Source: FCB group bacterium (GTDB lineage: Bacteria; Fidelibacterota; Marinisomatia; SCGC-AAA003-L08; JACNLC01). Taken from it: a stretch of DNA of 40,897 nucleotides. The stretch lies in the NCBI GenBank assembly GCA_013152375.1, contig JAADGM010000038.1, forward strand, positions 1 to 40,897, written 5' to 3'. Below are positions 8,009-26,143 of the stretch, piece by piece. A program made the position numbers and the translations under genes. Within the stretch, counting starts at the first letter, position 1; each line of letters opens with the position of its first letter. A model generated the notes under the pieces. It was not told the origin of the DNA. It ran no database searches and saw nothing but the letters and a program-made list of their open reading frames with translations.

Positions 8009-8589
8009 TGCTCTACCCTGCCGCAGATATCAACCTTGAATTTGCCGCCACAATTCTGGGAGAAGGGGACATTATCATCTATCCCACGGACACACTCTAC
8101 GGTTTTGGGGTTGATGCAACCAATGCCCGGGCAGTGGAACGTCTTGATGCCTTGAAACAGAGGGCCAGGCCCCTTAGTATTGTACTGTCTGCCGTCGGAG
8201 AAATCGACAAATATGCGGAAATTCCGCCCGAACACAAAACGCTCCTTAAAAAGCTGTTACCAGGACCCTATACCGTCCTGCTGCCGAAAAAAGACAGTGC
8301 TGTCGTTTCTGCCGTAACCCGGGAATCCCCCCTCATAGGTATCCGCATCCCGGCACATCCTTTTCCCACAAGTCTGGTTGCAATGTTCGGCAGGCCTATC
8401 ACGACAACCAGCATCAATCGGCACGGAGAAAACCCGAGTCTGACCCTGGAGGAGATCATCACCGCCTATCCTCAGATCCTGACCTTTAAGGATGGTGAGG
8501 CGATTGCGCAGAAGGGTTCAACCATTGTGGATCTTTCCGGCGAGATCCCCCTTTTGATACGCCGCGGAGCAGGAGCATTCCCCTTATGA
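8008..8589 (+). CDS. tsaC: L-threonylcarbamoyladenylate synthase (Sua5/YrdC/TsaC)
   Basis: A 193-aa YrdC-domain enzyme that makes threonylcarbamoyl-AMP from Thr, bicarbonate and ATP for t6A37 tRNA modification. The core motif is IIYPTDTLYGFG. KQRARPLSIVL follows, then SINRHGENPSLT and the C-terminal STIVDLSG. It is the short form without the Sua5 C-terminal domain. The track begins at a GTG (7996), but GGAGG lies 5 nt before the ATG at 8008, which also overlaps the lpxL stop, so 8008 is chosen. Its place among LPS genes looks like operon packing rather than function. Its last codons overlap the msbA start as ATGA. Confidence 0.93.
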   Translation: MLYPAADINLEFAATILGEGDIIIYPTDTLYGFGVDATNARAVERLDALKQRARPLSIVLSAVGEIDKYAEIPPEHKTLLKKLLPGPYTVLLPKKDSAVVSAVTRESPLIGIRIPAHPFPTSLVAMFGRPITTTSINRHGENPSLTLEEIITAYPQILTFKDGEAIAQKGSTIVDLSGEIPLLIRRGAGAFPL

Positions 8590-10430
8590 GCACCTATGCC
8601 CGGATTTTACGTTATGTAAAGCCTTACAAAGGTTTCGTCGTCGTGGCCCTGCTATCTTCTTTATTTTTTGTCACCATGAATTCATCTTCAGTCTGGATGG
8701 TGGGGTCACTCATCAGCAAGATCATGACACCCGCAGCCGAGATCGTCACGGATGTGGCTCCCCCAACCCCACCGGCCTTGTCGTTAAACGATAAACTGAA
8801 GGGTTTTACCGATTTCCTGATCGGTCACGGTGACCAGGCCAGTCAACTGGCGCGGCTTTGCCTGGTGTTATTGATCGTATTTCTGTTGAAGAATATTTTT
8901 TATTACATCAATAAGGTCACATTGGATTGGGTTCAAAATCGCTGGATAACGGATCTTCGGCAGGATCTTTTCACACATATTCACGCCCTGCCCCTGTCCT
9001 TTTTTGACCGGAATAAGTCCGCGGAACTTCAGTCCATCATGATTCGGGATGTGGATGTGATGCGCAGTGCCTTTACGCAGACAATTCAGAAACTCATCAT
9101 TGAGCCCGTGAATCTGCTGGCATTTATAACCCTGCTGTTCATCATCAGCGTAAAGATGACGCTCATCACATTGCTGATTATACCGGTCTCGGCCGTGGTC
9201 ATCGTGAAACTTGGTCAGAGCATACGGCGAAAGGCCCGGCGTTCCAGTATACAGATCGCCGGTGTAATGAATGTATTGCAGGAAACTCTGGCGGGGATGC
9301 GTATCGTCAAGGCCTTTTCCATGGAAAAGACCGAAATCAGGAAATTCAGCATTGAAAACAATAAATTTTTTAAACTCATCTTCAGACAGACGCGGATGAG
9401 GTCGATGAGTACGCCGATCAATGAGATCATCGGAGTTTCTATCGGAGTTGTCCTGCTGTGGGTTGGCGGTATGGATGTTCTCTCGGGCAAGGGTCTGGGG
9501 GGGGATGATTTCATGCGCTATATCATACTGCTCTTTGCCATGCTGCAGCCGGCCAAATCACTTGGGAATGTAAATTCCCAGATCCAGGCGGCTCTGGCCT
9601 CAGCAGACAGGGTCTTCAACATTCTCGATACGGATGCAACCCTCAAGGAAATTGCAAACCCCGTTCCCATCTCCCGGTTCACCGGAGTCATCGAATTTAA
9701 GGACGTTTCCTTTAAATATGAGTCCAGTGCGGTCCATTCGCTCAGCCATGTAGATGCCGCCATCCATAAGGGTGAGATTGTTGCTCTGGTGGGATTGAGC
9801 GGGGCCGGCAAGACGACCTTCGTGGATCTCATTCCGCGATTTTATGATGTGACCTCAGGCTCTATCACTATCGATGGGATTGATATCCGAAAACTTTCTC
9901 TTTCTTCGCTGAGGGGACTCATGGGGATTGTAACCCAGGAAACCATTCTGTTCAACGATACTATCGGCAATAACATCGCCTACGGCTCTCCTGATAAAAC
10001 ACCGGATCAGATTCGCAGAGCTGCCCGGATGGCCAATGCACTTGAGTTCATTGAGCAATTACCCGAGAAATTTGATACTCCTGCGGGAGAAAAGGGAGCT
10101 CGTCTGTCAGGCGGCGAAAAACAGCGGATCGCCATCGCCCGGGCTATATTGAAAGATCCTGAAATCCTGATCCTCGATGAAGCCACATCCGCCCTGGATA
10201 GTGAGGCGGAGCGAAAAGTACAGGAAGCAATCGATCTGCTGGTGAAAGATCGTACTGTCATTGTCATAGCGCATCGACTGTCCACCATTATCAAATCCGA
10301 TAAGATCATAGTTCTTGATAAAGGCATCATTGTGGAACAGGGTACACACAGCGAACTGTTGTCATTGAAGGGTAAATACCGCCAGCTTTATGATCTCCAA
10401 TTTAAAGATGAAATCGATGACAAAGGTTGA
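8586..10430 (+). CDS. msbA: MsbA-type ABC transporter (lipid A flippase/exporter)
   Basis: A 614-aa half-transporter with an N-terminal six-helix ABC transmembrane domain (about residues 15-340) and a C-terminal ATPase domain. The ATPase motifs are Walker A GLSGAGKTT (about 404), signature LSGGEKQR (about 507), Walker B ILILDEATSALD and H-loop IAHRLST. It works as a homodimer that flips core-lipid A across the inner membrane. It sits directly after lpxL and tsaC (ATGA overlap) and before glycan-decoration genes, so lipid A is the likely substrate, although a decorated glycolipid could also be moved. There is an insertion of about 30 residues rich in Pro/Ala/Val between the first two helices (EIVTDVAPPTPPALS). 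Confidence 0.9.
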   Translation: MSTYARILRYVKPYKGFVVVALLSSLFFVTMNSSSVWMVGSLISKIMTPAAEIVTDVAPPTPPALSLNDKLKGFTDFLIGHGDQASQLARLCLVLLIVFLLKNIFYYINKVTLDWVQNRWITDLRQDLFTHIHALPLSFFDRNKSAELQSIMIRDVDVMRSAFTQTIQKLIIEPVNLLAFITLLFIISVKMTLITLLIIPVSAVVIVKLGQSIRRKARRSSIQIAGVMNVLQETLAGMRIVKAFSMEKTEIRKFSIENNKFFKLIFRQTRMRSMSTPINEIIGVSIGVVLLWVGGMDVLSGKGLGGDDFMRYIILLFAMLQPAKSLGNVNSQIQAALASADRVFNILDTDATLKEIANPVPISRFTGVIEFKDVSFKYESSAVHSLSHVDAAIHKGEIVALVGLSGAGKTTFVDLIPRFYDVTSGSITIDGIDIRKLSLSSLRGLMGIVTQETILFNDTIGNNIAYGSPDKTPDQIRRAARMANALEFIEQLPEKFDTPAGEKGARLSGGEKQRIAIARAILKDPEILILDEATSALDSEAERKVQEAIDLLVKDRTVIVIAHRLSTIIKSDKIIVLDKGIIVEQGTHSELLSLKGKYRQLYDLQFKDEIDDKG

Positions 10431-11481
10431 TTTTGTATGGTCATCGGTAAAAGATTATGCTAATCTGTTGCCGCTTTATCAACATGTCAAAACTCTGAAC
10501 TGGGAAAGTGAGTTCTATAAAATCCACCGGCATTCGTTTAGAAACCGAAACGTACTGAAGAAGATCGGATCCACCATCATCATAGCATTTGATCAGCCTT
10601 TGAACCGGTTACGGAAGTCAGGCTGGGAAGGCAGCTTCATCTATGTGGAACATGGTTTGGGTCCTGTCAAGTATTACACCTATAAATATGATTTCTTTTA
10701 TGAGGCCTCGCTGCTGTTTTTTCCGGGTCCGGTTTTTCAGCGTAAGATGGCAGCGATCGACCCGAATTTTGACAGGGGACTCCTGGGTGGACTGCCCCGT
10801 ATTGATAATCTCGTCAATTCAGAGATTGACCGCGAAGAGTTATGTAATCGATACGGCTTGGAGCCGGAGTTACCGGTTATCCTTTTTGCACCAACCTGGG
10901 GTGGGAAATACGGTGCGGACTTCGGGATTCGAAATGCCCGCTATCTGCAGGGGCTCCCGAATGTGATCATCGCCCCGCACCCGTCAGATTATCGGATTGC
11001 CCGTAAATACGGGGGCGTTATTCCCGAAAAAAAGGGTGACATAAACCCGCTGATCAGATTGGCGGATGTGGTAGTCAGCGATGTTTCCTCTATCCTTGCG
11101 GAAGCGGCAATCCTTGATACACCCGTGGTACAGATCGAATTACCGGCTTATCCGGGGTGTTTTCCGGAAAGGGAAAAAAGAAAGACAGGAATTAGGATAT
11201 CAGAGGCTCTCCTCCGTACTGAAGAGCAGACAGACAGGATAAGGCGTCCTTTCAAAATTGCCTATCTCGATGAAGACTGGGTGATGGGACACACGTGTAA
11301 ACCCGAGGATCTGCAGGCCACGGTTGAACAGGCGCTGCAGAATCCCGGGGAGTTTTCAGCTGCCCGGAAATACTGGGCACAGCAAAGCTGCTGGAAAGCT
11401 GATGGCCGGACCTGTATCCGTATGGCAAAAATGATTTCACACCATCTTAATACGGGTGAAATAAAACAGGTGGAGAATTGA
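10417..11481 (+). CDS. CDP-glycerol glycerophosphotransferase-family enzyme (TagB/TagF-like)
   Basis: An approximately 354-aa GT-B-fold enzyme of the CDP-glycerol:poly(glycerophosphate) transferase family. The motifs are ILFAPTWGG (about residue 156), IIAPHPSD (about 184) and ADVVVSDVSSILAEAAILD (about 215-233), the nucleotide-binding and catalytic His region of TagF/TagB relatives. It probably moves an alditol phosphate (glycerol- or ribitol-phosphate) from a CDP carrier to a surface glycan or core oligosaccharide. The track start at 10390 lies inside msbA; ATGs at 10408 and 10417 are alternatives without good ribosome-binding sites, and 10417 gives the shortest overlap. A cytidylyltransferase gene follows immediately, which fits supply of a CDP donor. 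Confidence 0.8.
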   Translation: MTKVDFVWSSVKDYANLLPLYQHVKTLNWESEFYKIHRHSFRNRNVLKKIGSTIIIAFDQPLNRLRKSGWEGSFIYVEHGLGPVKYYTYKYDFFYEASLLFFPGPVFQRKMAAIDPNFDRGLLGGLPRIDNLVNSEIDREELCNRYGLEPELPVILFAPTWGGKYGADFGIRNARYLQGLPNVIIAPHPSDYRIARKYGGVIPEKKGDINPLIRLADVVVSDVSSILAEAAILDTPVVQIELPAYPGCFPEREKRKTGIRISEALLRTEEQTDRIRRPFKIAYLDEDWVMGHTCKPEDLQATVEQALQNPGEFSAARKYWAQQSCWKADGRTCIRMAKMISHHLNTGEIKQVEN

Positions 11482-12173
11482 TGGCGGTGACAGGGATCAT
11501 TCTTGCCGGCGGCAACTCACGGCGTTTTGGCGGCGATACGCCCAAGCAGTTTCAAATGCTCGGAGGAAAACGTGTACTTGAGTATTCGGTTCTGAGCTTC
11601 ACACGCAATCCTCAGATTAATGATATCATCATCGTCGTCCCTGAGAACTGGCTGCCAATAATTCAAAAGGAGTTTACAGAGGCCCTGGTTGTACCCGGTG
11701 GGCAATCGCGAAAAGCCTCTTCGCTGAGAGGTCTTCAGGCCTGTTCGGATAAGACGACAAAAGTGCTGATCCATGATGCCGCCAGGATGTTTGTCGATGC
11801 AGATATCATCCAACGCTGCCTGGATGCACTGGAAAATTCGGCAGCTGTGGCTACAATTTGGCCTGTTAAAGACACGATTGCCGAGGTCGAAAGCGATCAA
11901 TTGCTGCAGATACCGGAACGGTCAAGGCTTTTTGCTCAACAAACACCACAGGGTTTTGATTATCAGACAATATTAAAAGCCCACCGTACGAGTTCAGGAC
12001 CCGCGACCGATGATATTCAGCTCGTGTTAAAACTGGGATACCCCTGTACAACGGTGCCCGGTTCCGAGCTCAACTATAAAATAACCACCAGACTGGATCT
12101 CAAGATCGCCGCAGGGCTGCTGAATGACCCGGAAGTTGTCAGGATCTTCGACTGGTATCAGGATAAGGACTAA
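11481..12173 (+). CDS. IspD/TarI-family cytidylyltransferase
   Basis: A 230-aa enzyme that couples CTP to a polyol phosphate. GIILAGGNSRRFGGDTPKQF is the P-loop signature, with IHDAARMFV, LFAQQTPQGFDY, a TDD in GPATDDIQLV and the end ELNYKITTRLDLKIA. IspD (MEP-cytidylyltransferase) and TarI/Bcs1 (ribitol-5-phosphate cytidylyltransferase) share all of these. dxr at 22217 shows the MEP pathway exists here, so IspD is possible. The neighbour upstream is a CDP-alditol transferase, which favours TarI. The ATG at 11481, with GGAG 5 nt upstream and TGATG overlap, is preferred over the TTG of the track. Confidence 0.85.
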   Translation: MAVTGIILAGGNSRRFGGDTPKQFQMLGGKRVLEYSVLSFTRNPQINDIIIVVPENWLPIIQKEFTEALVVPGGQSRKASSLRGLQACSDKTTKVLIHDAARMFVDADIIQRCLDALENSAAVATIWPVKDTIAEVESDQLLQIPERSRLFAQQTPQGFDYQTILKAHRTSSGPATDDIQLVLKLGYPCTTVPGSELNYKITTRLDLKIAAGLLNDPEVVRIFDWYQDKD

Positions 12174-12174
12174 C

Positions 12175-12846
12175 ATGCGCGCTATTATTTTAGCAGCGGG
12201 GATCGGTTCAAGACTGGGAAAACCCCATCCCAAACCCCTCACCAGACTTGCCAGCGGTGAAACCATACTCGAAAGACAGATTGACCGTCTGACGCGGTTT
12301 CTGACCCTGGATGATATCATCCTTGTTGTTGGATACAAAAAGGACCTAATCATGGAGAGATTTCCCAGACTTACCTATGTCTATAATAATTTTTATGACA
12401 CCACGAATACCGCCTCCAGTCTGCTGGCAGGCTTGCGCAAAGTACGGAACGAAGATGTTCTCTGGCTGAATGGTGATGTCGTATTCGAGCAGGAAGCGCT
12501 TGAGCGTATCCTGGCGGCGAAAGTATCCGCTGTGGCGGTGAATACCGATTCGGTGGGCGATGAGGAAATTAAATATACACTGAATGAAGAAGGTGCGATA
12601 CTGGACCTTTCAAAAACTGTGAAGAACGGTCTCGGTGAAGCTGTTGGGATAAACCTTGTCAGGGCGGCTGATCTGTCGCGGCTGGTAGCCGGCCTCGAAC
12701 GATGCGAAGCTAACGATTACTTCGAGCGGGGGATAGAAATCGCAGCCCGGGAAGGTTTAAAGATGTTCCCGGTATATATTAATAATTTACTTTGTATGGA
12801 AATTGACTTCGAAGAAGACTTGAAGAATGTTAACGATAGATTATAG
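12175..12846 (+). CDS. LicC-like nucleotidyltransferase (choline-P/polyol-P cytidylyltransferase type)
   Basis: A 223-aa GT-A-like nucleotidyltransferase. MRAIILAAGIGSRLG is the NTP loop, KPLTRL the conserved Lys region, NNFYDTTNTASSL and WLNGDVVFE the metal and substrate region, IKYTLNEEGAI, LSKTV and GEAVGINL the lid, and MEIDFEEDL the last metal site. This pattern matches LicC, PntC and inositol-phosphate cytidylyltransferases more than hexose-1-phosphate enzymes. It would make CDP-choline or a related CDP-alcohol for the LicD-like protein encoded next. AAGGA lies 5 nt before the ATG at 12175; the track start at 12124 is inside the previous gene. No choline kinase (licA) is visible. Confidence 0.8.
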   Translation: MRAIILAAGIGSRLGKPHPKPLTRLASGETILERQIDRLTRFLTLDDIILVVGYKKDLIMERFPRLTYVYNNFYDTTNTASSLLAGLRKVRNEDVLWLNGDVVFEQEALERILAAKVSAVAVNTDSVGDEEIKYTLNEEGAILDLSKTVKNGLGEAVGINLVRAADLSRLVAGLERCEANDYFERGIEIAAREGLKMFPVYINNLLCMEIDFEEDLKNVNDRL

Positions 12847-12861
12847 GACGGGAAATTAGTA

Positions 12862-14019
12862 GTGGTACAGCCTGACGCGCGGCATTACCAGATTCATATC
12901 CGCCAGGTAGGAAAAATGGAAGACTTCAGCAATATCATAGAGATCATCACCGAAATCTGTCGATGTTTACGGGTTACAAAAATCCCCCATGTCATTGGCG
13001 GGGAAACACTGGCGGGCCTGACTGAAAACAACCTGACAAAATATGCCAATAACATCACTTTTTATATCATCGATGTTACACCGGCAAAGCTCTTCTTGTT
13101 ATCCATTCTGCTGCTTCGTCACAGGATTTTATTCAAGGTCAAAATAATTGACGGCAGCATTGTTTATAAGCTCCGCAAGAAACCATCCGTGACGAAAAAG
13201 AATCCCGAGTATTATTTGCTGCATCCCCTGAAGACCCGGGGGGATCTGCTGCAGGGGAAAATCGGTAATCGGGAAATCCGTTTCGACAGATCAGATATAA
13301 ACGCCCAAAGCGTCAGTGAGGTTTACCTTGACGGATGTACTTTCCCAGTGCCGGAGAACCCAAAAGCCTTCGTTCGGAAATATAATCAGAACCTCTTTGC
13401 ATCTTTCTATAAACGTTATGATATATATCTCGACGGGGACTCTGAAATAAAGGCCGTCACGCTGCTTGAAAAAATTGCAGATGTTATTGAAACAGAAAAA
13501 TGTGAGTACTGGCTTGACGGGGGAACCTTGTTAGGTGCCGTTCGGGATGGCAAACTCATTCCCTGGGATCACGATTTAGACCTGGGACTGAAGTACAAAA
13601 GTGATGAACAGATCCGTAGTCTCATCACGGCCCTGAAAAAGAAATTTTATGTTCGCGTGCTGCCGTTTTCCCGAAAAACCCATATCTGGCAATTAGGGAA
13701 GTACAGGGTGCTGAAAGTGTATCCCAGAAAATTCAGATTCGGCCGGGATAAACTCTGTGCCGATATTTTTATATTTTACAGAGGGACTTTGGATCAAACC
13801 CGGGAGATCGTCTATAAATATGGTGTATGGGATCAGAATGCAGTTCACAACCACCAGGTTCTGGATACACTTTCGACCCTCACCTTTTATGGCAGAGAAT
13901 ATTCTGTTCCCGGACAGCCGGAGAAATTTCTCCAGGCTAAATACGGTAAGGACTGGCGGACACCCAGGAAAGATTGGCACGTCAGCCTCGATGATAAAAC
14001 TTTGACCAGAGCATCCTGA
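12862..14019 (+). CDS. LicD-like phosphotransferase with a degenerate first repeat
   Basis: A 385-aa protein. The C-terminal half (about residues 210-375) has the LicD/fukutin-type nucleotidyltransferase core, YWLDGGTLLGAVRDGKLIP and WDHDLDLGL, with the metal-binding DxD. It likely transfers phosphocholine or a similar phospho-alcohol onto a sugar. The N-terminal half (about 20-185) repeats the layout in decayed form: VIGGETLAG aligns with LDGGTLLG, but the WDHDLD stretch has become KYANNITFY without acids. Later FPVPENPKAFVRKYNQNLF parallels YSVPGQPEKFLQAKYGKDW. The start is GTG (12862) with a weak upstream AGGAC; an ATG at 12916 behind AGGA is an alternative. It follows licC directly. Confidence 0.8.
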   Translation: MVQPDARHYQIHIRQVGKMEDFSNIIEIITEICRCLRVTKIPHVIGGETLAGLTENNLTKYANNITFYIIDVTPAKLFLLSILLLRHRILFKVKIIDGSIVYKLRKKPSVTKKNPEYYLLHPLKTRGDLLQGKIGNREIRFDRSDINAQSVSEVYLDGCTFPVPENPKAFVRKYNQNLFASFYKRYDIYLDGDSEIKAVTLLEKIADVIETEKCEYWLDGGTLLGAVRDGKLIPWDHDLDLGLKYKSDEQIRSLITALKKKFYVRVLPFSRKTHIWQLGKYRVLKVYPRKFRFGRDKLCADIFIFYRGTLDQTREIVYKYGVWDQNAVHNHQVLDTLSTLTFYGREYSVPGQPEKFLQAKYGKDWRTPRKDWHVSLDDKTLTRAS

Positions 14020-14026
14020 GGAGGTG

Positions 14027-14620
14027 ATGAAGAAATCAATTCTCATCCTGGGGAATGGAGAGTCCGTTTTAAAATATGAGTTTGGAAGTGCTATAGATGA
14101 CTTCCCTACGGTAGGACGGATTAATAACTATACAACCATCGGTTTTGAAAAATACATTGGCTCAAAGACGGATATCTGGTTCAACGGCGCCAATCAAACA
14201 CTCAAAAAACGTCCCCATAAACCGGGGAGAATTGTCGTTCTGATCCCTCCTGCAGTTTTGGTCCATAAGGGCGATGCCATTCACCCCCGGATCATGAAAA
14301 GGCTGGAGGTCGAGTCAACACAGTATGAGCTCGTTCCACTTGCTGACATGGAGCGATTTGCCAGGAAAAGCGGTGTGGCCCGTCCGACGACCGGTTTGGC
14401 GGCTATTCTCTGGGCACTGGAACATTATGACGAGGTGACCATCCACGGGTTTGACTTTTTCATTTCATCTAAAGGACATTACAATGATTCGCCTCTCACA
14501 AGGTGGCTCATTCGCAGAGGTATCCTGAAAAAAGCTAAAAAACATGATCTGTCCGGCGAAAAGATTTTTGTAGAAGCTCTCCTGAAGTCCGGGGAGCTGT
14601 ACTTGCTGGGTTCACCGTAA
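14027..14620 (+). CDS. GT29-like sialyltransferase
   Basis: A 197-aa protein with the four sialylmotif regions in order. The L-like region has ILILGNGESVL, IDDFPTVGRINNY and YIGSKTDIWF. The S-like region is RPTTGLAAI..ALEHYDEVTIHGFDFF. Motif III is GHYND, and the VS-like end is HDLSGEKIFVEALLKSG with the His and Glu. It would transfer a nonulosonic acid from its CMP derivative to a glycan acceptor. It has no N-terminal membrane anchor, unlike the animal Golgi enzymes, and is shorter. Bacterial GT42 is a more remote alternative. The next gene makes CMP-sugar. AGGAGGTG lies close to the ATG at 14027; the track uses GTG 14024. Confidence 0.75.
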   Translation: MKKSILILGNGESVLKYEFGSAIDDFPTVGRINNYTTIGFEKYIGSKTDIWFNGANQTLKKRPHKPGRIVVLIPPAVLVHKGDAIHPRIMKRLEVESTQYELVPLADMERFARKSGVARPTTGLAAILWALEHYDEVTIHGFDFFISSKGHYNDSPLTRWLIRRGILKKAKKHDLSGEKIFVEALLKSGELYLLGSP

Positions 14621-14680
14621 GGCATTTCAACCGTCTAAGCGTCAGCAGACTATTGGACTGAAACGAGAAATCCGGTCAGA

Positions 14681-14711
14681 AACTCCTCGACTGATACATG
14701 TAAAAGGAGTT
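14681..14711 (+). promoter_or_regulatory. Inverted repeat in the 139-nt gap before neuA
   Basis: AACTCCT (14681-14687) and AGGAGTT (14705-14711) are perfect 7-bp arms around a 17-nt loop. The right arm contains an AGGAG with no start codon at proper spacing. The gap is the largest within the plus-strand glycan operon up to this point and may hold an internal promoter; nothing more definite is seen. Confidence 0.25.
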
Positions 14712-14759
14712 AAAATCAGCAAATCAGCTGACAACTTACACACAAACACAGAGTAAATT

Positions 14760-15443
14760 ATGAAAATATTAGCATTTATCCCCGCCAGGGGTGGCAGTAA
14801 AGGGGTGCCGGGTAAGAATATCAGGGAGTTTGCAGGCAAGCCCCTCATCGTTCACAGTATCGAACAGGCGTTGGAAACGCCGATGATAGATGAAGTTGTT
14901 CTGTCCACGGACGACCGCAAGATCGCCGTTATTGCCCAAAATGCCGGAGCCCGTGTAATTGAACGCCCGGCCGAGATTTCAGGGGACACGGCCAGTACCG
15001 AAAGTGCCATTGCACACGCTATTTCCGTATTCAAATCGGAAGATGCATCGCCGGATATTCTCGTACTCATGCAGGCCACGAGTCCCCTCAGGCCTCCTAA
15101 CGCTCTGACGGCTGCCCTGGAAAAATTTATCCTGCATCGCTTTGATTCCCTGGTTACCCTGACACCCACCCACCGCTTTTTATGGGGTATATCCGGAGAA
15201 AAAGCAGTACCACGGTATGATTTTATGAATCGTCCCCGGCGCCAGGATATTAAAACAGAAGATGCAACTTATGTAGAGACAGGCTCTTTTTATATCTTTA
15301 CGCGTCGCCATTTTGAAACCACAGGGAACCGTCTGGGAGGTGAGATCGGGTATTATATCCTCCCGGAAGAATACGGCTATGAGATTGATACTATAACAGA
15401 TTTTCTGATGTTGGAGGCTATTCATAAAAATATCTCCGCCTGA
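14760..15443 (+). CDS. neuA: CMP-nonulosonate (sialic acid-type) cytidylyltransferase
   Basis: A 227-aa NeuA/PseF-type enzyme that couples CTP with a nonulosonic acid to give the CMP-activated donor. FIPARGGSKGVPGKNI is the nucleotide loop. LSTDDRKIA, MQATSPLRPP, YVETGSFYIFTR and YEIDTITDF follow, all family landmarks. It is the short form lacking the C-terminal domain of animal enzymes; a separate KdsC-like gene sits downstream. KdsB (CMP-Kdo synthetase) lacks the RGGSKGVPGKN form, so a sialic-type sugar is favoured. The ATG has only a weak ribosome-binding site. Product specificity (Neu5Ac, KDN, legionaminate) cannot be read from the sequence. Confidence 0.9.
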   Translation: MKILAFIPARGGSKGVPGKNIREFAGKPLIVHSIEQALETPMIDEVVLSTDDRKIAVIAQNAGARVIERPAEISGDTASTESAIAHAISVFKSEDASPDILVLMQATSPLRPPNALTAALEKFILHRFDSLVTLTPTHRFLWGISGEKAVPRYDFMNRPRRQDIKTEDATYVETGSFYIFTRRHFETTGNRLGGEIGYYILPEEYGYEIDTITDFLMLEAIHKNISA

Positions 15444-15450
15444 TTTCCCG

Positions 15451-17406
15451 ATGCGGGTAACGAGAATTCCATTGCCTGTGCAATTTTACGTTACCCTGGC
15501 GGGTTTTGCTGTCATTATTCTGCTGATAAATTGTTGGCGGATGGTATTTCTGTTAAGCCAGCTCTCCGAACTGAAAATAGAATATCTGACGACTTATGCA
15601 GCGGCCTTTTGGGTTGGTTTTCCCCTTGACGCCGTCATTGCCGGGTATTTCATTCTCCCGGTTTTCCTCACGATTTACTGGCCGTGGATCGGATGGCATT
15701 CAAAACGATATCCCCGGTTTTTCAGATCGTACATGGCCCTTGTGTTTGCGATCATTTCATTTCTTCAGCTGGCGGATATTTCCTTTTTTTCAGAATTCGG
15801 CACTCATTTGAATCTGCTTGCCGTCCAGCACAATGCCACACAGCAGGATACACTTCGCTATATTTGGCACAATTATCCCGTGGTTTGGTATGTTGTGGTT
15901 ATTGTGCTGGTATCGTTGGGTCTCTCTTTACTGCTGGGGAAAATTATCCGAAAACTGCCTGATACAGTTGCGAAATGGGGGTGGAACACAGCCTCAATCC
16001 TGGCCGGTCTGATCCTGCTTTTCACTGCAGTGAGGGGTGGCTGGCAGGAACGGCCTGTGGATTGGGGAATTGCCATGTTCAGTGATCATGCTCCCGCAAA
16101 TCAAATTGCCCTTAACCCCATTTTTTTCCTGGGCCGTTCAGTCCTTGAGCTGTCTTCTGAAAAAAATCTGGATCAACAGCTGACTTACTACGACCTTTCC
16201 GAGGCTATTGCCGAAACCCGGGAATTACTGAACGACGGCAGTATAAAATTTACCGATGATCATACGCTCAGCAGGGTCTTCGTCAACCCAGCGAAGCCCA
16301 TATCACCCAATATTGTACTGGTGATCATGGAGTCTCAGGTAGGGGAATTTTGCGGCTTCATCAATCCGGAAATGAAAGCTGTCACGCCAAACCTTGACAC
16401 CCTGGCGGAAAAAGGGCTCATGTTCAGAAACTGTTTTGCCAACGGCAAACGGTCTGCTTACGGCATTAGTTCACTGCTTTGCTCCTGGCCTGTAATACCG
16501 GGATTTCCCCTCATTTCTCAGATTGAATCTGCACGAAGGATCACCACGGCCGGCACGATTTTTAAAACGCTGGGATACGAAACCTGTTTTCTGTATGGAG
16601 GAGATGCGGACTTTGATAATATGAAAGGGTTCGTCACCGCAAATGGATTTGATCGTGTTATCGAGAGGGATGCATTCCCGGCCTTTACACCGGGTACTAC
16701 CTGGGGGGTCTTCGATCATTTCGTATTTGCAAAAGCCCTTTCATTGCTGGACGAAGCTTCGGCGCCGTTATTTTTGACCCTGTTCACAACGACGAATCAC
16801 CAGCCTTTTATCGTACCGGAGGAATATGAACCTTTCATCCCGGAATTGCCAAAATCAACTTACCGTGAAGGTAAACCCTTGCGGACCATGTCCTATGTGG
16901 ATAGGGTGATCGGTGAATTCATGGCGAAAGGAAAGGATCATCCCTGGTTTGAAAATACGCTGTTCATCTTCATTTCGGACCATGGACTCTCGGTCCACAG
17001 GGAAATTTTTGAAGATCCCCGTAATGCCAATATTCCCTTTCTGATGTATGGCCCGTCGATCATCAAAACACCCCGGGTGGTGGATTCGGTCGTCAGCCAG
17101 GTGGATGTTCTTCCACAGATTCTTTCGCTGATCGGCTACCCGAGTGAATTTTCAGTATTCGGCAGGAATGCACTTGCTGATGAAAAGGGCTTTGCCTGTC
17201 GCGTGACAAATGATCACGTACTTTGGGTAGAAAAGGAATTGCTTTATGAAGAAAATCTGGGACAGAACAGCAGACTTTTTCAGTACAAATCACTTTATCA
17301 GGCGCCCTACCAGGAAATCCCCGCCACAGATCCACGATTTCAGGATGTCCAAAAACGCTGCAGATCCTATCTGCAATCTGCCTTTTTTCTGTTCAAGGAA
17401 AGATAA
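15451..17406 (+). CDS. LTA synthase/MdoB-like membrane sulfatase-fold phosphotransferase
   Basis: A 651-aa protein with five N-terminal membrane helices (about residues 12-33, 49-77, 91-113, 143-162, 177-193) and a periplasmic sulfatase-fold domain (about 285-600). The motifs are IVLVIMESQ (metal Glu), NGKRSAYGISS where LtaS has its nucleophilic Thr (here probably Ser), TTNHQPF and FISDHG. Relatives move phosphoglycerol from phosphatidylglycerol to lipoteichoic acid (LtaS) or to periplasmic glucans (OpgB/MdoB). In this diderm LPS locus it may add phosphoglycerol or phosphoethanolamine to the surface glycan. No Shine-Dalgarno is seen and the ATG lies 7 nt after the neuA stop. Confidence 0.85.
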   Translation: MRVTRIPLPVQFYVTLAGFAVIILLINCWRMVFLLSQLSELKIEYLTTYAAAFWVGFPLDAVIAGYFILPVFLTIYWPWIGWHSKRYPRFFRSYMALVFAIISFLQLADISFFSEFGTHLNLLAVQHNATQQDTLRYIWHNYPVVWYVVVIVLVSLGLSLLLGKIIRKLPDTVAKWGWNTASILAGLILLFTAVRGGWQERPVDWGIAMFSDHAPANQIALNPIFFLGRSVLELSSEKNLDQQLTYYDLSEAIAETRELLNDGSIKFTDDHTLSRVFVNPAKPISPNIVLVIMESQVGEFCGFINPEMKAVTPNLDTLAEKGLMFRNCFANGKRSAYGISSLLCSWPVIPGFPLISQIESARRITTAGTIFKTLGYETCFLYGGDADFDNMKGFVTANGFDRVIERDAFPAFTPGTTWGVFDHFVFAKALSLLDEASAPLFLTLFTTTNHQPFIVPEEYEPFIPELPKSTYREGKPLRTMSYVDRVIGEFMAKGKDHPWFENTLFIFISDHGLSVHREIFEDPRNANIPFLMYGPSIIKTPRVVDSVVSQVDVLPQILSLIGYPSEFSVFGRNALADEKGFACRVTNDHVLWVEKELLYEENLGQNSRLFQYKSLYQAPYQEIPATDPRFQDVQKRCRSYLQSAFFLFKER

Positions 17407-17534
17407 AGGTTTCCAGGTGTTTCACGTCAGGTATTTTCCGATTTCATGGAATTCATGGTTTACTATTGCCCCAACAGAATTAATTTTCAGCCAACTATTA
17501 AAAGGAATTTCATGACATTGAGGAGCGCAGAGCA

Positions 17535-18590
17535 ATGAGGACTATAAAAATTGGTGACAGAATTATTGGCGACGATCATCCGGCACTGGTAATTGCTGAA
17601 ATTGGCATCAATCACCAGGGCGATATTGAAATTGCAAAACAGTTGATCCAGCAGGCCCAGATCTGCGGGGCTGATGCAGTCAAATTTCAGAAAAGAACCA
17701 TCTCCCGAATTCTCACCCGGGCAGGTCTCGATGCGCTCTACGATAACCCGAATAGTTTTGGCAGGACCTATGAAGAACACAAAATCGCTCTGGAACTCTC
17801 AGAACGGGATTATGCTGAACTTCAGCAGCTGGCAAATGATTTGGGGCTGATGTTCATAGCCTCAGGCTGGGATGAGCAAAGCATAGACTTCCTGGATGAA
17901 TTAGGGGTCCCTTTTTTCAAGATGGCTTCGGCGGACCTGACGAATCATCCTCTGCTTGAATACACTGCAAAGAAGGGAAAAGCCATGGTCCTGTCAACCG
18001 GCATGGCGGACCTGACGATGGTGAGAGAGGCCTATGCCTTAGTGAGTGAATACAGTGATCAAATTGCCATTTTGCAATGTACTTCAACCTATCCTTCTTC
18101 TTTTGAGGAAATAAACCTGAACGTTATTAAGACCTATCTTGAAGAATTCCCCAATGCAGTCATCGGGTACTCCGGCCATGAGCTGGGGATTGCCATTCCG
18201 CCGGTGGCCGTTGCACTGGGAGCCCGCATCATCGAGCGGCATTTTACGCTGGACAGAACCATGAAAGGAGGGGACCACGCGGCCTCTCTGGAACCGCCCG
18301 GATTTTCAAAAATGGTCCGGGACATCCACCATGTTGAGCTGGCAATGGGAGTGGGTGACAAGCAGGTTCAGGAATCTGAAAAACCTATTTTCGTAAAACT
18401 GGCAAAGAGCCTTGTGTCACTGGTGGAAATAAAAAAAGGGGAAATAATTACACGGGAAATGTTGACGACCAAAGGACCGGGTACGGGCATCTCTCCCGTG
18501 AAGATGGATCTTGTTGTGGGCAAAAAAGCCCTAAAAAATGTCCCGGCAGATACTGTTCTGAAAAATGATGACATCGACTGGGCATCTTAA
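17535..18590 (+). CDS. neuB: Sialic acid synthase, NANS-like (9-phosphate type) subfamily
   Basis: A 351-aa enzyme condensing PEP with a mannose-type sugar to a nonulosonic acid. The TIM-barrel NeuB domain (about residues 15-275) has IAEIGINHQGD, DAVKFQKR, VPFFKMASADL, STGM, IGYSGHE and ERHFTLDRTMKGGDHAASLEP. A C-terminal SAF/antifreeze-like domain (about 290-348) follows. GRTYEEHKIALELSERDY, ASGWDEQS and LEYTAKKGKAMVLSTGM resemble human NANS, which uses 6-phosphorylated sugars, more than E. coli NeuB. A phosphatase gene follows, as a 9-phosphate route needs. GAGGAG lies 9 nt before the ATG; a 128-nt gap upstream could hold a promoter. Confidence 0.9.
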   Translation: MRTIKIGDRIIGDDHPALVIAEIGINHQGDIEIAKQLIQQAQICGADAVKFQKRTISRILTRAGLDALYDNPNSFGRTYEEHKIALELSERDYAELQQLANDLGLMFIASGWDEQSIDFLDELGVPFFKMASADLTNHPLLEYTAKKGKAMVLSTGMADLTMVREAYALVSEYSDQIAILQCTSTYPSSFEEINLNVIKTYLEEFPNAVIGYSGHELGIAIPPVAVALGARIIERHFTLDRTMKGGDHAASLEPPGFSKMVRDIHHVELAMGVGDKQVQESEKPIFVKLAKSLVSLVEIKKGEIITREMLTTKGPGTGISPVKMDLVVGKKALKNVPADTVLKNDDIDWAS

Positions 18591-18606
18591 CCCGGAGGCC
18601 AATTAA

Positions 18607-19122
18607 ATGTCAAAATCAACCCAGGAGAAACCCTCTTCCAGATTAGCCTCAACCATTAAACTGGTCGGTACGGATATCGATGGCGTCTGGACGGATGCAA
18701 AAATGTACTATACCGCCGACGGAGATTTTATGAAGGCCTTCTCAACCTATGACGGAGCGGGAGTTCAACTTCTCAGGGACAACGGAATTGAGGTTGTCAT
18801 CCTCACAGGAGAAAACTCTCCCATTGTCAGCAGAAGGGCGGAAAAGCTCGGGATCACCAGAGTTTGGCTGGGCGAAAAACAAAAGCTGAAGCGGATGCGT
18901 TATATCTGCCAGCAAATGAATATCGGGATGGATGAAGTCGCTTACATAGGTGATGATATCAATGACCTTGCCCTGCTGAAAGAGGTGGGGTTTTCTGCGC
19001 TGCCCCCCAACAGTCCTATTCAACATCGGTTTACACCGGATTATGTGACCCTGAGACGAGGGGGTGAGGGAGCCTTCAGAGATTTTGTTGAAGAAATTCT
19101 TAGTTCCACTTTTAAAAGCTGA
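18607..19122 (+). CDS. KdsC-like HAD phosphatase (nonulosonate-9-P or Kdo-8-P)
   Basis: A 171-aa cap-less HAD phosphatase of the KdsC subfamily. Motif I is GTDIDGVWTDAKMYY with the nucleophile and acid Asp. STYDGAGVQLLRDNGIEVVILTGENS holds motif II, a Lys-containing EKQKLKRM motif III and YIGDDINDLALL motif IV. These enzymes form tetramers and remove phosphate from Kdo-8-phosphate (KdsC) or KDN-9-phosphate/Neu5Ac-9-phosphate. The location directly after a NANS-like synthase and directly before waaA leaves both roles open, and one enzyme might serve both. GGAGG lies 8 nt before the ATG. Confidence 0.85.
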   Translation: MSKSTQEKPSSRLASTIKLVGTDIDGVWTDAKMYYTADGDFMKAFSTYDGAGVQLLRDNGIEVVILTGENSPIVSRRAEKLGITRVWLGEKQKLKRMRYICQQMNIGMDEVAYIGDDINDLALLKEVGFSALPPNSPIQHRFTPDYVTLRRGGEGAFRDFVEEILSSTFKS

Positions 19123-19148: not shown

Positions 19149-20426
19149 ATGCTTTTCTATATTTTTTATACATTTCTGTCCCCGGTTTTTGCCATCCTGC
19201 TGGTAGTATCAGCACTGTTTAATCGGAAAATTCGTCTTCACCTGTGGCACCAGTCCGCAACTTTAGCAAGGGCTGCAGCCGTAGTCAGAAAAAACCGGAA
19301 TAAAAAACAGGTCGTGATTTTTCATGCGGCCTCAGCCGGGGAATTTGAGCAGCTCAAACCCATTCTTGAAGCGTTGGATCGGGGGAAATATCTGCTCGTA
19401 CAGACCTTTTTTTCACCGACAATCTATCAAAAAGCGTCCGGATCAAAATTATTCGACGTCTGTCTTTATCATCCCTTCGATCTGCCCTGGTCTGCTGCAA
19501 GGTTTTTTCGACTGTTAAAACCGGACTATTATATTCTCACCCGTCATGATATCTGGCCTCATCATGTGCATCAGGCGAAGAAAAGGGGCATCAAGACTGT
19601 ACTGATCAATGCGAATCTGCATCTTAAATCCGCCCGTCTGCACCCCCTCCTGCTGTCCCTTAACCGTTGGCTTTTTCATCATTTTGACCTCATCACAACC
19701 GGCTCACAAAGACTTCGGGAGAATCTTTCCGGGCTATGTTCGACAGAAAAGGTTTTCGTGACGGGCGATACGCGATTTGACCAGGTGATCCGCCGCGCAG
19801 AAGCACAGCAGGATAAATTGCTGTCCGAAAATTTTATTTCAAAGAATAATATGATCTTTGGGAGTATAATTACATCTGACCATCCTTTGATTTTTGGAGC
19901 GCTTAGCGTCTTTTATCCCGACGGGTCAAAAACACTCATTGAACGGGAGCAACGTCTTATTCTGGTTCCTCACGAGGTCGATGAATCTACGCTGCTCGTC
20001 ATAGAAGCAAAACTAAAGGAACTGAAGTTCACCCCTCGGCGTTACAGCAAACTCATGAAAACAACAGATACACATGTACTTCTCGTTGACGAAACCGGTA
20101 TCCTGCCCGACCTTTACCGCTATGCATCGCTGGCCTATATCGGTGCCGGATTCGGTGCCGGCGTCCATTCGGTACTGGAGCCGGCAGTTTATGGAACCGT
20201 TGTCTCCTTCGGTCCCAATATCCACATACTGGATGAAGCAATTTCGATGTTCGAGTTGGGAATCGGCAGGATGGTGTACACGGCCGAAGATCTTGCAGAC
20301 TTTATGCATCTTTTGACAGATAAAGAAAAACAAAAGGAATTATCTGAGCAAACTCGTAAGTTTGTACTGGACAACAGTGGTGTCACTTCCCATCTGATCA
20401 ATCTTATTTTTGGAGCATCAGTCTGA
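19149..20426 (+). CDS. waaA: 3-deoxy-D-manno-octulosonic acid (Kdo) transferase
   Basis: A 425-aa GT30 enzyme that adds Kdo from CMP-Kdo to lipid IVA at the inner membrane. It has an N-terminal membrane helix (residues 1-24), the catalytic Glu in HAASAGEFEQL (about 60-70) and the C-terminal donor-binding end ETGILPDLYRYASLAYIGAG plus SVLEPAVYG. Its length and layout match KdtA/WaaA. The ILTRHDIWPHHV block replaces the more usual ETELWPN, as happens in FCB homologues. The stop overlaps the next start (TGATG). No kdsA or kdsB is visible in the window. It ends the sugar-decoration block and links it to LPS. Confidence 0.93.
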   Translation: MLFYIFYTFLSPVFAILLVVSALFNRKIRLHLWHQSATLARAAAVVRKNRNKKQVVIFHAASAGEFEQLKPILEALDRGKYLLVQTFFSPTIYQKASGSKLFDVCLYHPFDLPWSAARFFRLLKPDYYILTRHDIWPHHVHQAKKRGIKTVLINANLHLKSARLHPLLLSLNRWLFHHFDLITTGSQRLRENLSGLCSTEKVFVTGDTRFDQVIRRAEAQQDKLLSENFISKNNMIFGSIITSDHPLIFGALSVFYPDGSKTLIEREQRLILVPHEVDESTLLVIEAKLKELKFTPRRYSKLMKTTDTHVLLVDETGILPDLYRYASLAYIGAGFGAGVHSVLEPAVYGTVVSFGPNIHILDEAISMFELGIGRMVYTAEDLADFMHLLTDKEKQKELSEQTRKFVLDNSGVTSHLINLIFGASV

Positions 20427-23368: not shown

Positions 23369-23985
23369 AAGGCGGCTGACAGTATCATGAGCGGGTGCAG
23401 GCGAGTATTAAGATTCGTTGGAATATCCGTACCCACTTGAAGGAAAACCCCCCGGGCCAGTTTTTTCATCAGATAAATATGAAATTGATTGACCTGCCAA
23501 TTTGTATCGAAAAGTCTCTGCCAGTCAAATTTGATATCATAATGTTTTGCCGGGATACTGCCGGAAATCTGCAGATTAAAATAGCGGTAATCCCCTGAAT
23601 CTCCAAACCTCATACGGTGCATCCCGAACCCGAGGGTAGTTGAATATTGTTTGAGGAGTATATTTTCAGGAAGATAGGACAATCCCGTATTGAGATAAAG
23701 AACCAAATCACCGGTGCTGCTGAAAGGCTGCAAAGCTCCAAAGATCCCGAGATTGGGGGACACCCAGTACGTGCCTGCCAGCCCGGGTTGAGCAGCCCTG
23801 GAATGTGAAAAAACAGAAAAGCTCAATTCAGAAAATTCTTGGGGAGTATCAACGAGAATACTGTAGGACTCGGCAATTCTGGCCTCGTGGCCGCTACCGG
23901 CGGGCAGGAATGAAATCAGACAGATGAATACACTCCAGGCTGCGGTTCCCCTAAGATCAGATAATTCCACGATCACTTTTTTCAA
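23365..23985 (-). CDS. Small outer-membrane-like protein of unknown function
   Basis: A 206-aa protein with a hydrophobic segment near the N-terminus (about residues 15-30, WSVFICLISFLPAGSG) that looks like a signal peptide. Alternating hydrophobic/polar stretches follow (FSELSFSVFSHS, YRYFNLQISGSI, FHIYLMKKLARGVFLQVGTD), suggesting beta strands of a small barrel or lipocalin-like protein. I do not recognise the family. The first 9 codons overlap the lpxA end by 29 nt, which places the ATG inside lpxA; no better start is seen. It is coupled to dxr by ATGA. Its position among Lpx and Bam genes hints at an outer-membrane role. Confidence 0.7.
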   Translation of the reverse strand: MKKVIVELSDLRGTAAWSVFICLISFLPAGSGHEARIAESYSILVDTPQEFSELSFSVFSHSRAAQPGLAGTYWVSPNLGIFGALQPFSSTGDLVLYLNTGLSYLPENILLKQYSTTLGFGMHRMRFGDSGDYRYFNLQISGSIPAKHYDIKFDWQRLFDTNWQVNQFHIYLMKKLARGVFLQVGTDIPTNLNTRLHPLMILSAAL

Positions 23986-24721
23986 TGAAAGTGATAATCT
24001 TGATGAGTTCGGGAGTCATTTCCATTTCAGCCCGGATCTCCTTCAGTGCCTGGGTAACATTGAGATCTGATCTGTAGATACGGGCATAGGCCCTCTTGAT
24101 CTGAGTACGCGTATCCTTGTCAAAACCCCTTCGCCGGAGACCAATGGCATTGATCCCTGCATATTCCATGGGTTCTCCTGATGCCAGAATGTAAGGGGGT
24201 ATATCCTGTACGACTCTGTAGGCTCCCCCCACGAAGGCATGCTCTCCGATCCTGCAAAATTGATGTACGGGCGTGTGGCCGCCGATAGAAACATGATAGC
24301 CGATTTCAACATGTCCTCCCAGGGAAATGCCGTTTGCCAGAATAACTTTATCATCAATGTCACAGTCATGTCCCACATGGACATACGCCATGATGAGGCA
24401 ATCCTTACCGATAGTTGTTTTGCCCCGGGCGTTCGTACCGCGGTTTAATGTGCAGTATTCCCGCAATGTTGTGTTGTCTCCAATTTCCAGGGTAGTCATC
24501 TCTCCGCCAAACTTCAGATCCTGGGGGATCTCACCCAGAATGGCCCCCTGAAAAACACGGCAATTATCGCCGAGGATCGTCCCTTCCTTGATCACAACGT
24601 GGGAGGCAATTTGGCAATTATCGCCGATTTTTGTATTTTTTTCAATGATTGTAAATGGTCCCACTGAGGTGCCGTGACCTAGTTTTGCGGAGGGATCAAT
24701 AATAGCCGTTGCGTGTATCAA
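23957..24721 (-). CDS. lpxA: UDP-N-acetylglucosamine O-acyltransferase
   Basis: A 254-aa LpxA, the first enzyme of lipid A synthesis, which moves a 3-hydroxyacyl chain from ACP to UDP-GlcNAc. The left-handed beta helix of hexapeptide repeats spans residues about 1-185. The catalytic-His region is VHVGHDCDIDD, and GGHTPVHQFCRIGEHAFVGG holds later conserved residues. The C-terminal helical domain has ALKEIRAEM. The start is TTG; two adjacent TTG codons follow the fabZ stop and the second (24721) gives the family-typical MIHATAIID. It directly follows lpxC-fabZ in the same operon. Confidence 0.95.
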   Translation of the reverse strand: MIHATAIIDPSAKLGHGTSVGPFTIIEKNTKIGDNCQIASHVVIKEGTILGDNCRVFQGAILGEIPQDLKFGGEMTTLEIGDNTTLREYCTLNRGTNARGKTTIGKDCLIMAYVHVGHDCDIDDKVILANGISLGGHVEIGYHVSIGGHTPVHQFCRIGEHAFVGGAYRVVQDIPPYILASGEPMEYAGINAIGLRRRGFDKDTRTQIKRAYARIYRSDLNVTQALKEIRAEMEMTPELIKIITFIEKSDRGII

Positions 24722-24724
24722 CAA

Positions 24725-26143
24725 TTACTCTCTTTTATCAACAACCGAAGCCATCATCTCCGCCTCAGCCACGACCTGATCGTCAACGTAGGCTTTACCG
24801 GCAATGCGGCAGGTATTCATTCTGAACTTAAGGAGCTCGACTTCGAAATAAACCTGGTCACCGGGAATGATGGTCTTGCGAAAACGGGCATTCTTAATGG
24901 CAGTAAAATACATTAATTTCGTCTCCGGATTGGATATCGAATTCAGGATCAGAAAACCACCAGCCTGAGCCATTGCCTCGACAATCAGCACGCCGGGCAT
25001 TACCGGCTGGCCGGGGAAATGCCCCTGGAAAAAGGGCTCGTTAATGGTGACATTTTTCAAGGCATGAACAAGTTTTCCCGGTTCAACGTCCAGTACACGA
25101 TCGATCAGCAGAAAAGGATATCGGTGCGGCAGGATCTGCAGGATGGCATGGATGTCAAACTTGGCTTTTGTGTCCGCCTGGCGGCGTTTTTTGTCCAAAA
25201 TCTTTTTCTGATAAACTTTTTTTATATTCCTGACAAGTTCCACATTTGCCGCATGTCCGCTGCGGGCAGCGATCACATGTCCCCGGATGGGCATCCCCAG
25301 CAGGGCCAGATCACCGATGAGATCGAGCACTTTGTGTCGTACCGGTTCATTCGAAAATCGAAGTTTTACACCGTTGAGCATACCATTTTCGCCGGTGAAG
25401 ATATCCGATTTGATCTTGAACATTTTTCGGATGGTCTCAAGTTCATCTTCACGAACTTCCCGATCGAGAAAAACCAGGGCATTATCGATACCACCACCCT
25501 GTATGAGCCCCAGTTCCTTAAGCTCTTTTATTTCTGAAAAGAAGCAAAAAGTTCTTGCCGGAGCGATCATGTGGACGAAATCCTCTTCCAGAGAATATAT
25601 GGCCGTATATTGCGTTCCCAGTGATTTAAAGTGATAATCCGTCATAAACGTAATTCGGAAACGATCCGACGGAAGTACATGAATATCCACACCTCTTTCA
25701 GGTTCGCTGTAGGTGATGGTTCTGTCAATGATGAGTTCTTCACGGTGTGCGTTTTGTTCTTCAATTCCAGCTGCAATCAACAAATCCACAAAGGGTTTGG
25801 CGCTGCCGTCCATAACCGGCGGTTCTTTGTTGGTCATTTCGATGAGAACATTATCTATTTGCAATCCGCTAACGGCTGCAAGGACATGCTCAACGGTATG
25901 GATCCGATTGCCGTTTTGACCAATCGTTGTTCCTCTGGAAATGTCGATCACATGATCGATATCAGCCAGGATCTCCGGACAATCCGGAAGATCCTTACGT
26001 TCGAAGCGGATTCCCGTATTGGGTGCTGCGGGCTTAAAAATGATTGTGGATTCGACACCGGTGTGAAGTCCGACCCCGCTGATGCTCATCTCTTTACGGA
26101 TGGTCCTCTGATATTTGGAGTGTTGATAGGTCTTGTCCGACAC
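24725..26143 (-). CDS. lpxC: Bifunctional LpxC-FabZ: UDP-acyl-GlcN deacetylase / 3-hydroxyacyl-ACP dehydratase
   Basis: A 472-aa fusion. Residues about 10-300 are LpxC, the zinc deacetylase that commits to lipid A, with [38 protein letters not shown] and [17 protein letters not shown] (zinc ligands His, His, Asp and the catalytic His). Residues about 325-472 are FabZ, which dehydrates 3-hydroxyacyl-ACP, with [14 protein letters not shown] and [18 protein letters not shown] (catalytic His and Glu). The fusion is known from Bacteroidetes and relatives and joins two enzymes competing for hydroxyacyl-ACP flux. The start is GTG with AGGAG 5 nt upstream, 2 nt after the lpxD stop. Confidence 0.96.

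Follow-up and report, generated by a model that had tools for sequence, protein, structure and literature searches.

Sialylation-type genes in a lipopolysaccharide setting

The stretch of DNA analysed here (the window, 40,897 nucleotides) belongs to a 2.6 Mb, 89% complete metagenome-assembled genome (MAG) of Candidatus Neomarinimicrobiota (Fidelibacterota), and its named relatives are mostly MAGs of the same phylum. We examined an operon on its + strand that encodes a glycosyltransferase of family GT29 (14027-14620), a cytidine monophosphate (CMP)-nonulosonate synthetase of the NeuA/CMAS type (14760-15443), a NANS-type synthase (17535-18590), a KdsC-family HAD phosphatase (18607-19122) and a WaaA-like transferase of family GT30 (19149-20426). 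An earlier note on this DNA had described the first four as one run between msbA and waaA. These genes lie where it had placed them and have the identities it had given, and the run also contains an LtaS-like gene that it had omitted, between NeuA and the synthase (15451-17406, + strand; a membrane phosphoglycerol/phosphoethanolamine-transferase-like protein of sulfatase fold, PF00884 3.1e-40).

The GT29 reading frame opens at 14024 or 14027, encodes 198 amino acids and matched Pfam PF00777 with 56.1 bits (E = 4.8e-15, cut-off 23); NCBIfam gave no match. The four sialylmotif regions named earlier are present, with L at about 14042-14185, S at about 14381-14461, III at 14477-14482 and VS at 14543-14560. 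Across 20 aligned relatives we observed invariant residues in every one of them: N11, R32 and N34 (L), T123-G124 and G142 (S), H152-Y153 (III) and H174-x4-E179 (VS). An AlphaFold2 model (mean predicted local distance difference test score 89, predicted template-modelling score 0.87) was compared with the PDB using Foldseek, and all 30 chains found at E<=1e-3 were mammalian GT29 sialyltransferases. These family and fold searches, which had been proposed as a check, gave no better family than GT29. GT42 or another transferase family was considered and dropped because neither search gave such a match, no GT42 model appearing among the profile matches up to E 0.1. The source genome has a single copy of the gene, and none of the 14 control genomes had a match; on plasmids GT29 was not found, and on phages there was one weak match.

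With zero cysteines, the protein lacks the disulfide that links the L and S motifs in animals, and its identity to solved GT29 enzymes is ~18%. Bacterial GT29 proteins, likewise without the disulfide cysteines, have been described in alpha-, gamma- and epsilon-Proteobacteria, where their function in bacteria was not predictable (Petit et al. 2018, PMC5811610); the occurrence of GT29 in a bacterium is thus no novelty in itself. Given its linkage to NeuA, we consider it very probable that 14027-14620 encodes a CMP-nonulosonate transferase. A separate GT29 match was seen in the C-terminus of a 668-aa Helicobacter mesocricetorum protein (L045, 303-2306) whose N-terminus resembles GT2 glycosyltransferases.

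The synthase (PF03102 plus a SAF domain) shares 59-92% identity with its counterparts in related clusters. Its identity to human NANS is 47% (341 residues), whereas Neisseria NeuB reaches 31% and B. subtilis SpsE 33%, and NANS was the nearest compared sequence outside the clade of cluster synthases; of the NANS query, the last 67 residues matched human domain 1wvo (129 bits), and the remainder is unverified. A maximum-likelihood tree placed the cluster synthases and NANS on one side and NeuB, SpsE and PseI on the other (branch support 100/99), so that the phylogeny suggested in the earlier note came out with NANS and not NeuB. Because several reference branches are long, we do not claim an exact sister group. 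The enzyme groups with the NANS-type sugar-9-phosphate synthases and is predicted to use a hexose-6-phosphate. The Bacteroides KDN synthase (KDN, 2-keto-3-deoxy-D-glycero-D-galacto-nononic acid) was sought on plasmids as a reference and was not found among the matches listed. The source genome also carries a second module (L108, G000:C147, 1983-3896; also L125, G179:C95) in which a KdsC-family HAD and a GmhA-like SIS isomerase accompany a NANS-side synthase that has no SAF domain. It is set among sulfotransferases and glycosyltransferases, and might join phosphoenolpyruvate (PEP) to heptose phosphate.

The phosphatase scored 184.3 bits on the NCBIfam KDN-9-phosphate phosphatase model NF058599 (cut-off 180), as the 9-phosphate route put forward earlier would predict. 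Several orthologues fell under the cut-off, at 155-171 bits, and the two other KdsC-family HADs of the source genome scored 111 and 107 bits. Its closest solved relative is 3e81 from Bacteroides, for which the PDB entries include variants substituted at E56 and K67. These two BT1713 residues, which we take to be specificity determinants, are kept as E69 and K80 and are nearly invariant in relatives, whereas the KdsC of the lpt operon has R and E. The idea that 18607-19122 is the ordinary KdsC of the genome was dropped, since the lpt operon contains a separate KdsC, with different scores. For NeuA (PF02348 1.6e-25), the best PDB matches were PpNeuA 9t4z and animal CMAS 1qwj, ahead of bacterial NeuA structures, and matches to KdsB were weak; its product is probably CMP-KDN. 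Taken together, these assignments give good support to CMP-KDN synthesis by a 9-phosphate route, which seems highly likely.

Substrate of the pathway

The earlier note had left the product as KDN or N-acetylneuraminic acid (Neu5Ac) and had reported that NeuC was missing. NeuC is indeed absent from the window and from the source genome, where the epimerase is of the non-hydrolysing WecB type (286.7 bits for wecB, 63.7 bits for NeuC). NanE was not found in the five genomes searched, the source genome included, and two genomes that carry the whole cluster, G180 and G181, have no epimerase of the WecB/NeuC superfamily. There is thus no evident source of N-acetylmannosamine (ManNAc) or ManNAc-6-phosphate, and mannose-6-phosphate is therefore the likely substrate, as it is in Bacteroides thetaiotaomicron and Prymnesium parvum (PMC6200933). 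Of the two products, KDN is the more likely, and Neu5Ac is not supported.

The Kdo pathway and the single GT30 enzyme

LpxA (23957-24724, - strand; PRK05289 347.5 bits, cut-off 226) and an LpxC-FabZ fusion (24725-26143, - strand; PRK13188 618.1 bits, cut-off 465) exceed their curated cut-offs, and an LpxL/HtrB-like lipid A acyltransferase opens the lipopolysaccharide (LPS) run (7136-8008, + strand; PRK08419 118.5 bits, below the cut-off of 248). Lipid A synthesis is thus to be expected in this organism, and these genes support the LPS setting suggested in the earlier note.

We also looked for the enzymes of 3-deoxy-D-manno-oct-2-ulosonic acid (Kdo) synthesis in whole genomes. The KdsA model gave nothing above cut-off in 14 of 14 Fidelibacterota genomes (completeness 77-100%, with one at 100%, one at 98% and two at 95%) and exceeded it in 4 control genomes. 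Weak subthreshold matches were dropped as KdsA candidates; the five checked were 3-deoxy-D-arabino-heptulosonate 7-phosphate (DAHP) synthases. No KdsB was recognised in the five closest genomes, where the CTP_transf_3 matches inspected were NeuA, further cytidylyltransferase-like genes in G179 and a GlmU-like protein. Weak PF02348 matches were likewise dropped as KdsB: in the source genome the sole CTP_transf_3 match besides NeuA was GlmU-like and was identified as GlmU, and the one in G180 was GlmU-like by eye. The relatives tested thus appear unable to make Kdo, and KDN therefore probably takes its place in the outer membrane.

Exactly one GT30 gene was present in each of the five genomes searched, always inside the KDN operon. 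In the source genome this gene, 19149-20426, fits the GT30 N-terminal domain (PF04413 1.2e-36). The CMP-Kdo supply (KdsA, KdsB) looked for as a mark of WaaA was not found in the genome.

Conservation and spread of the cluster

A recurrent gene order, msbA - Glyphos - IspD - LicC - LicD - GT29 - NeuA - (LtaS-like) - synthase - HAD - WaaA, was observed with losses across Fidelibacterota and in one Cloacimonadota MAG, and a shorter set in two Flavobacteriaceae MAGs. GT29 itself occurred in 32 of 245 Fidelibacterota genomes; the Cloacimonadota search found it in 2 of 125 genomes and the Flavobacteriaceae search in 2 of 400. The earlier view that such a set would be unusual for this kind of bacterium does not hold: the cluster is conserved in the phylum, bacterial GT29 proteins have been published (PMC5811610) and so has a Bacteroides KDN route, as cited in PMC6200933.

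We compared 33 clusters, 20 with GT29 and 13 without. All 13 GT29-less clusters keep the synthase, nearly always with the HAD and WaaA, so that synthase, HAD and WaaA, together with NeuA, form the core unit. The gap between HAD and WaaA is at most 66 bp, often with overlap, in 28 of the 29 clusters showing both. GT29 and NeuA adjoin or overlap in most genomes carrying both, and their linkage spans at least three phyla. Glyphos, LicD and LicC are found in none of the 13 GT29-less clusters, compared to 13, 11 and 9 of the 20 GT29-bearing ones (Fisher p 1.6e-4 for Glyphos and GT29, a guide only because the genomes are related). Since it is dispensable and tied to these three genes, we regard GT29 as an accessory belonging to a decoration module.

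In the source genome this module lies upstream of GT29 on the + strand. It follows an MsbA-like ABC transporter, the lipid A flippase, recognised by inspection of its open reading frame and by its conserved place upstream of the cluster (8586-10430). The Glyphos_transf family protein, seen only in GT29-bearing clusters, comes first (10390-11481; PF04464 3.3e-12), followed by an IspD-type cytidylyltransferase (11478-12173; TIGR00453 190.2 bits, cut-off 181.3), a LicC-like sugar/choline-phosphate nucleotidyltransferase (12175-12846, the frame opening at 12124 and the likely start being 12175; NTP_transf_3 2e-19) and a LicD family phosphotransferase (12862-14019; PF04991 1.1e-14).

In a tree of WaaA, the Flavobacteriaceae and Cloacimonadota cluster proteins nest within the Fidelibacterota cluster clade, apart from Bacteroides WaaA, and a single genome, G177, supplies the best match to each of four Flavobacterium proteins (NeuA, synthase, HAD and WaaA). 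WaaA therefore travels with the CMP-KDN pathway, and NeuA, the synthase, the phosphatase and WaaA have moved jointly into a Flavobacterium.

Some GT29-less clusters carry other genes nearby. A Sortilin/BNR-repeat protein stands immediately upstream of the synthase in several of them (L168 8947-10110, L170 4214-5338, L173 9578-10720); BNR repeats are also typical of sialidases. In another, from G244, a GT-D-fold-like protein immediately precedes NeuA (L174 2392-3153) and is perhaps an alternative transferase. At the far end of our window, a large protein resembling multihaem cytochromes is encoded at 38414-40879; by eye, the list of reading frames shows numerous CxxCH motifs in it and, at its C-terminus, a region like a sorting signal.

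Proposed function and alternatives

We propose that the NANS-type synthase would condense mannose-6-phosphate with PEP to KDN-9-phosphate, which the HAD would dephosphorylate, and that NeuA would convert the resulting KDN into CMP-KDN. Where a lineage lacks CMP-Kdo, the GT30 enzyme would then transfer KDN from CMP-KDN onto lipid A, as a KDN:lipid A transferase, and KDN would stand in Kdo's place as the inner-core ulosonate. For GT29 we propose an accessory role, in which it would use CMP-KDN to attach one more KDN to the inner core; this would apply to lineages whose genomes also encode the LicD/Glyphos module for decoration with phosphodiesters. The model draws on family memberships, on gene linkage, on co-transfer and on the fact that the genomes tested lack KdsA, KdsB, NeuC and NanE, and its substrates, products and linkages are predicted from these. 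As a whole it seems to us somewhat probable, and use of CMP-KDN by WaaA, so that KDN replaces Kdo, is somewhat more likely than not in view of the missing genes and the linkage. There is perhaps an even chance that much of Fidelibacterota joins lipid A to the core through KDN, a nine-carbon sialic acid, in Kdo's place, with a GT30 that uses CMP-KDN, and that the cassette has spread to other phyla. The earlier note had missed that GT29 is dispensable to the cluster, that WaaA is firmly tied into it and that the Kdo pathway is absent; therefore the main job of the pathway is probably the replacement of Kdo, and not sialic-acid capping of LPS.

Several observations weigh against Kdo replacement. 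The clusters of G171 (L182) and G174 (L181) have GT29, NeuA, HAD and WaaA without a cluster-type synthase, and KdsA is present in one cassette-bearing Flavobacterium. A second KdsC-family HAD sits in a canonical lpt operon (pyrG-HAD-LptC-LptB), as expected of a Kdo maker. Among Fidelibacterota, the Kdo-pathway searches covered KdsB in five genomes and KdsA in genomes that bear the cluster, so the anti-correlation stands without its cluster-free arm. To our knowledge, CMP-Kdo is the sole donor known for GT30 enzymes. We found no biochemistry or glycan analysis of Fidelibacterota, and nothing to the point in the literature on Marinimicrobia LPS or Kdo, or on KDN with WaaA. In G171, a divergent NeuB-family gene, the only one, lies elsewhere in the genome.

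The alternative that survives best, although it is unlikely, is that CMP-KDN from the 9-phosphate route serves GT29 alone and caps an ordinary Kdo core, WaaA being a normal Kdo transferase that is a neighbour by chance. The closeness of GT29 to NeuA, the GT30 membership of WaaA and the KdsC retained in the lpt operon would all fit. However, KdsA is absent in 14 genomes and KdsB in 5, the GT29-less clusters keep the synthase and nearly always HAD and WaaA, and WaaA moves with the pathway between phyla. A decidedly unlikely reading is that the NANS-type synthase has been repurposed to turn arabinose-5-phosphate into Kdo-8-phosphate, with the operon as a non-orthologous replacement of kdsA, kdsC and kdsB and the LPS still based on Kdo. 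It would account for the missing kdsA and kdsB, the sole WaaA in the operon and the KdsC family of the HAD. Yet the HAD favours the KDN-9-phosphate model and keeps the specificity residues, NeuA is of the CMAS/NeuA type and scores more weakly as KdsB, and the stretches checked contain no arabinose-5-phosphate isomerase next to the KdsC of the lpt operon. Moreover, hexose-6-phosphates are the substrates of NANS-type enzymes, and arabinose-5-phosphate is not converted to Kdo by that of P. parvum (PMC6200933).

We regard an animal-like synthesis of Neu5Ac from ManNAc-6-phosphate as improbable. Human NANS accepts both ManNAc-6-phosphate and mannose-6-phosphate (Km table, PMC6200933), but NeuC is absent in the source genome and NanE in five genomes (ManNAc kinase was not sought), G180 and G181 carry the whole cluster with neither kind of epimerase, and the phosphatase scores as the KDN-9-phosphate type. 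It is very improbable that the GT29 homologue is no longer a nonulosonate transferase or uses another nucleotide sugar, since its short length, lack of cysteines and low identity to solved enzymes are set against the motif residues H, E, N and TG, which do not vary among 20 relatives, and against linkage to a CMP-nonulosonate synthetase gene in at least three phyla.

Kdo is regarded as a near-universal and usually essential part of LPS, and its loss in an organism that still makes lipid A would need a substitute. If KDN replacement is correct, a sialic acid instead of Kdo in a marine phylum would alter the accepted minimum of LPS. It would also give the animal-type sialylation enzymes NANS and GT29 a bacterial use and perhaps origin, and make available GT29 enzymes that are small and soluble and whose donor can be predicted.

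Comparison with known systems

The operon has the same three-enzyme set as the KDN pathway of B. thetaiotaomicron (BT1713 phosphatase, BT1714 synthase and CMP-KDN synthetase), whose phosphatase is the solved relative closest to the operon HAD. Bacteroides retains Kdo. Unlike B. thetaiotaomicron, for which the capsule has been the speculated destination of KDN (PMC9000132), the Fidelibacterota operon includes GT29 and the sole GT30. The P. parvum pathway, with a mannose-6-phosphate-specific KDN-9-phosphate synthase, a CMP-KDN synthetase and the 9-phosphate logic, resembles what is predicted for the operon; it differs in belonging to an alga, in that a KdsC-type phosphatase was not found there and in having no LPS (PMC6200933). 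Animal sialylation (NANS, NANP, CMAS, GT29) has in common with the operon a NANS-type synthase, a 9-phosphate intermediate, a CMAS-like NeuA and GT29, whereas the operon has a KdsC-type phosphatase in place of NANP, a soluble, short, cysteine-free GT29, no GNE and a presumably bacterial acceptor. The bacterial GT29 proteins of Petit et al. 2018 (PMC5811610) share the four sialylmotifs and have no transmembrane segment and no disulfide cysteines; ours comes from a new phylum and from an operon whose other genes point to a donor sugar. Finally, 19149-20426 shares its family, its place in an LPS operon and the SxGE motif with the Kdo transferase WaaA/KdtA (GT30; A. aeolicus 2xci), but the pathway linked to it is that of CMP-KDN, and none for Kdo was found that could supply it.

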